From assembly GCA_021730285.1 (NCBI GenBank), contig CP082962.1, positions 4,225,501 through 4,289,500 on the forward strand: DNA of 64,000 nucleotides, read 5' to 3'. The translations under genes and the position numbers were made by a program. The notes under the pieces are model-generated. The model did not search any database. It was not told the DNA's origin and worked only from the letters and a program-made list of their open reading frames with translations. This document shows positions 32,822-34,300 of the stretch, in pieces. Within the stretch, counting starts at the first letter, position 1; each line of letters begins with the position of its first letter. This DNA is from Desulfovibrio sp. JY. GTDB lineage: Bacteria; Desulfobacterota; Desulfovibrionia; Desulfovibrionales; Desulfovibrionaceae.

Positions 32822-32986
32822 TTTTGCCGTCCGACGGGATGGGACCGCAACCGGATGACGTTTGCGGTAATTACTGTCTTTTCTTGTCATGCAAGGAAGT
32901 TAGCATCCCCTGTCGGGGCTGGCAAGAATGGCCCGGGCGACACAAAGGGCTTTACATGGCGAAAAATTCCAGACATAGTTCACCCC

Positions 32987-33163
32987 ATGAACGATACCCT
33001 GCTTTTCATCGGCGTCATGGTTGTCTGGTTCCTGATCGTCCGGGTCGTCTTCCCCAAGCTCGGCATACGGGGGTGAGGCATCGACACGGGGTGCGGTTCG
33101 CGCCCCAACCCCCCGCGCAAGCCGGACAATCCGGACAAGGACGCCGGATCGCCTAGAAACTGA
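32987..33163 (+). CDS. Candidate 58-residue membrane selenoprotein (TGA at 33074-33076 read as Sec)
   Basis: ATG 32987 opens a single transmembrane segment (LLFIGVMVVWFLIV) followed by FPKLGIRG. A TGA at 33074 would end the product at 29 residues. Reading through, the frame continues GIDTGCGSRPNPPRKP and on to a TGA at 33161-33163, giving a Cys five residues after the TGA position and a hydrophilic tail. Twelve bases after the TGA a stem GGGGTGCG/CGCGCCCC closes a GTT loop (33088-33106), matching the position and loop G of a bacterial SECIS element. No Shine-Dalgarno is evident. The 3' end overlaps the OMP gene by 11 bases. If not Sec, this is a 29-residue small membrane protein. Confidence 0.45.
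33088..33106 (+). promoter_or_regulatory. Candidate bacterial SECIS hairpin
   Basis: Eight pairs including one T-G (GGGG-T-GCG with CGC-G-CCCC) close a three-base GTT loop whose first base lies 20 bases after the TGA at 33074-33076. Bacterial SECIS elements need a stem-loop at this distance with a G in the first loop positions. Confidence 0.4.
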
Positions 33164-33757: not shown

Positions 33758-34147
33758 TCAATGCATCAGGGACTTGACGCCGATCGACTTGCGCGCGGAC
33801 GCGACGGGCTGTTCCCGCTCCAGGATGACGGCCGTGCCGTAGCAGGAGAAATAGCGCGAACCGTCGGGATGGAAGGCCACGTTCTCCTGGTAGCCGATGA
33901 TGGCGTCGGCGCCGATGTCGATGGCGCTGGCGGTCAGGCCGTAAAAGGCGCACTCGGAGTCGAAGCCGCGGCCGCTGACGAGCCCGAGCACCTTGCGGAC
34001 CTTGCGGCCTTCCAGGCCCGGCGTGGTCACCACGGGAAACTTGCCGGAGAAAAACATCTCCTTGGCATTCTTGAGCCGCGCGCCCTTCTTGAGTTCCTCG
34101 TGACGCCCCCCACGGCTCTTTTTGTCGCCGCCGAAAAGTGAAAGCAT
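33758..34147 (-). CDS. YbjQ-family (DUF74) protein
   Basis: A 129-residue protein with the YbjQ/UPF0145 pentameric fold: TTPGLEGRKVRKVLGLVSGRG in two parts, GADAIIGYQENVAFHPDGSRYF and the C-terminal GTAVILE strand. The family has been called heavy-metal-binding, but its function is unclear. An AAAGGAGG Shine-Dalgarno fixes the start at 34147. It is probably in one transcript with the outer-membrane protein gene downstream. Confidence 0.8.
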   Translation of the reverse strand: MLSLFGGDKKSRGGRHEELKKGARLKNAKEMFFSGKFPVVTTPGLEGRKVRKVLGLVSGRGFDSECAFYGLTASAIDIGADAIIGYQENVAFHPDGSRYFSCYGTAVILEREQPVASARKSIGVKSLMH

Positions 34148-34300
34148 GCCGTCCTCCTTTGCGCGCGCCCGGCCGAAGTGGCCGGGCATTCCCCGCTTTC
34201 CATTGCTCTAGCAAGGAGCTTGCCAATAATTTTATTAAATTATTCCGGCATATTCAAAAGAAGGACAACTGTTCTGTCAAAGTTCTGACCCCTCACGCGC

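Follow-up and report, generated by a model that had tools for sequence, protein, structure and literature searches.

The bacterial selenoproteins known so far are encoded with an in-frame UGA and a downstream SECIS hairpin, in organisms that possess SelA/B/C/D, and carry their selenocysteine (Sec) near a Cys, as set out in the available part of PMC13188914. The limits given there for the bacterial SECIS hairpin are a G as first or second loop base, 16-37 nt past the UGA, and an energy of ≤-7.5 kcal/mol. The gene family described here shares the in-frame UGA, the downstream hairpin, the Sec machinery and a Sec near a Cys. In our sample Cys homologues are nearly absent from it, but they are numerous for every new family that deep-Sep (PMC12013277) and the GOS survey (PMC2398784) describe in the available parts of these reports. 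Among proteins lacking Sec, the FeoB-associated Cys-rich membrane proteins (PF12669) resemble the family in their single N-terminal helix, basic stretch and short Gly/Cys-rich tail, and differ from it by their Cys clusters.

We have analysed a stretch of 64,000 nucleotides from Desulfovibrio sp. JY (the window), one gene of which very probably encodes a 58-residue single-pass membrane selenoprotein of a Sec-decoded family, a judgement that leaves its function aside. Gene finders would take the Sec codon for a stop and end the gene there. An earlier note on this DNA had described a 29-codon ORF with a membrane helix closing at a TGA, 28 further open codons with U30-x5-C36 and a Pro/Lys/Asp-rich tail, and a stem with a GTT loop starting 12 bases past the TGA. 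All of these are present: the gene runs from an ATG at 32987 through 29 codons, the TGA (33074-33076) and 28 open codons to a terminal TGA, with a helix predicted at residues 2-24 and the stem at 33088-33106. The features are as follows.

32987..33163, + strand: complete CDS with the TGA read as Sec, as supported by homologues (MNDTLLFIGVMVVWFLIVRVVFPKLGIRGUGIDTGCGSRPNPPRKPDNPDKDAGSPRN)
32990..33058, + strand: predicted single transmembrane helix, residues 2-24 (AlphaFold2 and family hydropathy)
33053..33064, + strand: PKLG motif (P23 and G26 the same in all 29 rows of alignment A1)
33074..33076, + strand: in-frame TGA, predicted selenocysteine, residue 30 (TGA in 187/188 distinct CDSs, TGC in 1)
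33088..33106, + strand: SECIS-like hairpin of 8 bp with loop GUU (-14.2 kcal/mol; shuffles; covariation)
33092..33094, + strand: conserved Cys36 codon (U-x5-C), within the hairpin 5' arm
33095..33160, + strand: Pro/Lys/Asp-rich tail, predicted disordered (pLDDT and family tail composition)
33161-33163, + strand: terminal stop TGA

The hairpin pairs GGGGTGCG with CGCGCCCC around the loop; 11 nt intervene between the TGA and the first stem base, the 12th past the TGA. With the loop GUU at 19 nt and an energy of -14.2 kcal/mol, it lies within the published limits, and none of 200 synonymous shuffles was as low in energy. AlphaFold2 places a helix at residues 2-24 and disorder after it, with a mean pLDDT of 65.9 overall, 87 for residues 1-10, 90 for residues 11-20 and at most 53 per block from residue 31. 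A Foldseek search of the predicted structure against the PDB gave no match, and the family profile against PDB sequences found only EmbB (E 0.4). Upstream of the start (window 32969-32986), no obvious Shine-Dalgarno sequence is seen in the same-genus genes, several of which share GTTCAC directly before the start, unlike many distant members, which have GGAG-like sites there (all by eye). The neighbours in the window genome are unrelated. One encodes a glutamine cyclotransferase on the opposite strand; the other, barrel-like by eye, overlaps the end of the tail. A YbjQ-type putative heavy-metal-binding protein is encoded near the locus (window 33758-34189, minus strand).

Relatives were sought in genome searches that read through all three stop codons and therefore did not select for TGA. 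In a first sample, 51 of 59 genomes (own included) matched at a loose E≤1, and the best 36 rows (E≤0.006), which include all 13 other same-genus genomes, all have TGA. In the class, profile A1 matched 154 of 348 genomes at E≤0.01, some of these being weak chance matches. In the phylum, profile A2 matched 172 of 395 genomes at E≤0.001, spread over 114 of 247 genera, in a sample of genomes at least 70 % complete that includes our own and some class genomes. Further relatives occur in Desulfomicrobium and Desulfohalobiaceae. The members have 44-66 residues and a single helix and are typified by PKLGxxGUG or PKLGVxTUMS, and the common form outside the class resembles NRWVLPKLGVPTUMSxSC. Across the sampled phylum the family is widespread, in many sulfate reducers and bacteria related to them, and in this sample it is almost exclusively in a Sec form. 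Some candidates were set aside: L099, L100, L102, L103, L105 and L107, loci of a DNA pattern search whose records come from other groups, scored 12.6-17.3 bits and were treated as chance; by eye, weak matches without TGA in G133 and G213 are chance-like, and the weak match G015:C4 looks like a Cys-rich protein, in a check of weak rows that passed over others, e.g. G180 and G073:C62.

The search of relatives for Cys or TGA at the Sec position, which the earlier note had proposed, yielded 188 distinct CDSs from 184 loci (121 at ≥25 bits and 67 new at ≥22 bits). Of these, 187 have TGA at this codon and one has TGC (Cys); homologues ending here with TAA or TAG, which the note had named as evidence to the contrary, were not seen among the matches listed. 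The CDS collection read only TGA through, and TAA/TAG forms would be visible only in the genome searches, where the matches listed reach down to about E 1 in the first sample, 0.004 in the class and 6e-6 in the phylum. Nine further loci, in which the profile match stops short of the Sec codon, all have TGA. Terminal stops of the 188 CDSs are TGA in 73, TAG in 59 and TAA in 56. The genome of the Cys homologue, L075, has SelB, and its congener G118 keeps TGA; the L075 hairpin has only 4 bp and -3.7 kcal/mol.

At the protein level, none of the 29 rows of alignment A1 departs from P23, G26, U30 or C36, and the same P, G, U and C are again invariant in the 40-row phylum alignment A5. Variable columns, counted by codon position, are 16/29, 8/29 and 27/29 before the TGA and 6/11, 4/11 and 7/11 after it (13 sequences), against 9/11, 11/11 and 10/11 past the terminal stop (15 sequences); the 15 sequences were picked by motif and include L115, of another genus, and two with an extra Gly were left out of the 13. 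Conservation beyond the TGA, which the earlier note had made a touchstone, is therefore found in the codons that follow it, Cys included, and not in those past the terminal stop. The first Cys follows Sec after 4-6 residues in 164 of 187 proteins and after 7-9 in 6, hence after 4-9 in 170. Pro, Gly and Sec, joined by the Cys in those 164, make up the core of the family. A universal Sec-Cys pair across the family is unsupported, since the Cys is distant (after 11-18 residues) in 9 proteins and absent in 8. A tandem pair of different family members occurs in L087-L090, the second member in L087-L089 being UMPxPPDVWETP, without Cys after Sec. A variant tail in L077-L084 (one genus) has Gln after Sec and its only Cys near the C-terminal end.

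Hairpins accompany the TGA across the family. The best one reaches ≤-7.5 kcal/mol in 110 of 187 genes and is weaker in 77; it reaches ≤-5 kcal/mol in 164 and is weaker than -5 in 23, and at least L232 has none in the scan. The mean best hairpin is -8.4 kcal/mol past the Sec TGA versus -2.6 in synonymous recodings with local codon usage, and 107 of the 187 genes singly reach p≤0.05 against synonymous shuffles. Past the 187 terminal stops the mean is -2.7 kcal/mol, and -7.5 is reached by 9 % versus 59 % past the Sec TGA. Pairing was also assessed by anchoring on the Cys codon, with no folding, in the 168 of 187 sequences with Cys after 4-7 residues: five-pair helices fall in three main registers (38, 17 and 16 %), with about 5 % in two more and at most 3 % elsewhere. 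Covariation was measured on 69 distinct related stretches of the first register, aligned on the Cys codon without gaps and drawn from loci with numbers below 176; proteins with Cys-Gly-Trp-Thr/Lys were left out by motif, a choice made after the registers had been seen. In this set, 83.0 % of cells are paired, versus 26-51 % when the register is slid, and 45 cells are changed on both sides versus a shuffled mean of 13.7. The covariation is 0.309, versus at most 0.117 when slid, and is reached by 0 of 500 shuffles, a count that is not a probability, given the kinship of the sequences and the post hoc choice of register. The number of pairs changed on both sides, 5, is not distinctive, being found also at slides +2 and +3 and in 21 of 500 shuffles.

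The genome also has the machinery for Sec: selB and selC, whose absence the earlier note had considered, are both present, as are selA and selD. The tRNA-Sec has anticodon TCA. Another tRNA also scores above the Rfam cut-off for tRNA-Sec; ARAGORN identifies it as a tRNA-Ser. The SelD match contains one in-frame TGA (C1:3713393-3714313), and SelD is therefore likely itself a selenoprotein. Across 348 genomes, family and SelB occur together in 142, the family only in 12, SelB only in 142 and neither in 52 (Fisher p 3e-6, with no correction for kinship). When 8 weak matches are set aside, SelB is below cut-off in 9 of 146 family-bearing genomes, all 9 of them draft; SelB is partial in G087, G091 and G249 and ambiguous with EF-Tu in G009 and G293, and nothing clearly SelB-like was found in the draft genomes G012, G070, G080 and G237.

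These data bear on how the TGA is read. Were it an ordinary stop, the product would be a 29-residue membrane peptide and the hairpin would be regulatory or mRNA-stabilising. Seen within the window only, such a reading has something to recommend it: an equally strong SECIS-like hairpin follows 27 of 1285 TGA trinucleotides on both strands, and 12 sites pass a comparable test for mini-ORF, open read-through and hairpin, the window gene being included in both counts. Taken by itself, the pattern is no rarer in the window than chance would give, and single-window statistics were rejected as proof; the observation stands above chance because relatives conserve the pattern. Indeed, a TGA kept in 187 of 188 genes and never replaced by TAA or TAG among the matches listed, protein-level conservation that extends to the Cys and ceases at the terminal stop, and a Cys-codon homologue that reads through without a comparable hairpin all speak against a stop, which we consider extremely improbable. 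Near-cognate decoding as Trp or Cys would equally give an open frame and conservation, which by themselves do not name the inserted residue. This too we judge very improbable, if marginally less so, given that the same genes use TGA as terminal stop in 73 of 188 cases, that the own genome has the full Sec machinery, that family and SelB are associated, and that the hairpin is of SECIS type, with loop position and G as published in the available part of PMC13188914. The Sec decoding and 58-residue membrane selenoprotein put forward in the earlier note are thus supported by conservation, SECIS hairpins and Sec machinery, and we consider Sec decoding almost certain: SelB and tRNA-Sec would insert selenocysteine at the UGA, guided by the hairpin 11 nt on.

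A 17-residue stretch with a mean hydropathy of at least 1.8 precedes Sec in 178 of 188 proteins, and K+R are more numerous after the helix than before it in 180 and equal in 8. Because of this excess an N-out/C-in topology is expected, the positive-inside rule being a rule of thumb. The distance from the best hydrophobic stretch to Sec is 7-12 residues (5th-95th percentile), and in the predicted topology Sec would be at the cytoplasmic membrane surface. The tails of the family are rich in K, S, P, D and G.

No constant neighbour was found in 126 loci (97 class-level or earlier and 29 phylum-level) or in 67 phylum loci. Upstream on the same strand lie a PurC-like cluster in 39 of the 126 loci (median 36 bp), a HisD-like one in 29 and a FabI-like one in 15, each identified by Pfam for one member and by similarity for the rest; downstream ribosomal-protein and DnaB-like genes were named by eye. 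Thioredoxin-type neighbours occur in few loci only: L101 has the order ArsR, selenoprotein, thioredoxin, thioredoxin-like, pyridine nucleotide-disulphide oxidoreductase, and in L197 a gene that by eye is thioredoxin-like lies 8 bp upstream. In 22 of 188 cases (L078-L082, L084, L140, L143, L145, L189, L205, L206, L208, L214, L226, L232, L233, L236, L246, L251, L258 and L261), 9 of them in one genus, and also in L272 and L276, the selenoprotein gene has an FmdB-type zinc-ribbon start motif next to it on its own strand; the FmdB-type gene comes before in some families and after in others, and Pfam Zn_ribbon_8 was confirmed for both such neighbours tested. The FmdB family zinc-ribbon protein is a recurrent neighbour of the family and not a relative; rare Sec forms of FmdB have been reported (PMC2398784, available part). 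Of the 67 phylum loci, 6 have a DsbD/CcdA-type cluster (one member by Pfam) somewhere in the sequence retrieved around the gene, and in 2 of these it shares the strand of the gene.

As to function, the likeliest reading, though we would stop short of calling it probable, is selenol/thiol redox chemistry by a protein tethered to the membrane and served by the thioredoxin system. The redox neighbours in L101 and L197 favour it, and the small number of such loci counts against it. The N-terminal helix would serve as an anchor, with the N terminus outside, and Sec at the cytoplasmic membrane surface would form a selenenylsulfide pair in proteins with a Cys a few residues further along. This Sec-Cys pair would cycle between reduced and oxidised states, be reduced by the thioredoxin system, and serve to reduce membrane-near peroxides, disulfides or reactive sulfur. 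Sec (and Cys) at this surface might instead be a ligand or carrier of metal, selenide or persulfide working with the FmdB-type protein, and not a redox catalyst, which we find rather doubtful. The adjoining FmdB-type motifs in 22/188, plus L272 and L276, agree with it, as does the similar size and layout of the FeoB-associated Cys-rich membrane protein of the own genome, whose link to iron transport is by name only; however, the motif is not seen beside 166/188 genes, the window gene included (some loci being too short), and to our knowledge FmdB function is poorly known, which we count against this role. Less likely still, the protein might be a small accessory subunit in a membrane complex, respiratory or not, where Sec would aid electron transfer or assembly. 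Such subunits do resemble the family in size and single helix, and the DsbD/CcdA-type clusters also fit, but the lack of a constant neighbour, of a solved-structure match by fold, and of any by profile beyond E 0.4 weighs against it.

The family was also compared with known ones. In NCBIfam release 20.0 the window protein matched 0 families at E≤1, and 51 members of A2 and 40 of A5 gave stray matches only (best E 0.0053). Pfam returned no family for the window protein, with one DUF6479 match at E 0.16, and stray matches only for the same 51 and 40 members. PF12669 did not report the window protein at E≤1, let alone at its gathering cut-off; it matched 2 of the 51 A2 members (best E 0.0055) and is not among the families listed for A5. 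The own genome has a true PF12669 member (L265 1444-1614, minus strand; 38.2 bits, cut-off 27), which is the second own-genome match of the family profile and was rejected as a second family copy. In the available parts of the literature, no such entry appears by name, domain or motif column among the 119 families/subfamilies of PMC13188914 Table 1, none of the new families of deep-Sep (PMC12013277) is described like the window protein, and PMC9312934, PMC2398784, PMC1794560 and PMC1914089 hold no such family. The earlier note's word 'undescribed' holds as far as these NCBIfam, Pfam, PDB and literature searches reach, subscription papers and supplements lying outside them, where a prior description is possible.

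If true, our reading adds a widely distributed selenoprotein, with profile matches in 114 of the 247 genera sampled in the phylum, which the catalogues checked do not contain. A family that is almost only Sec raises the question of which chemistry is beyond Cys there. Moreover, very short selenoprotein genes would be a blind spot, as any method relying on a Cys homologue or on a lower limit of ORF length would presumably drop the family.

Finally, the eukaryotic SELENOK and SELENOS offer a comparison. Their Sec is at the C-terminal end, whereas that of the window family is near the helix, and the eukaryotic SECIS lies in the 3' UTR, whereas the family hairpin is in the coding region. The likeness is in architecture only, that of a membrane protein whose Sec falls within a disordered segment (available part of PMC10298544). 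SELENOS is a disulfide reductase and peroxidase in vitro, its selenenic acid being trapped as an internal selenenylsulfide, according to the same part of that paper. It is conceivable, if on the unlikely side, that the family constitutes phylum-wide, almost Sec-obligate mini membrane selenoproteins, missed because their genes are shorter than 70 codons, split by UGA and nearly without Cys homologues, which would be a bacterial counterpart of SELENOK/SELENOS in architecture and thioredoxin-linked chemistry.
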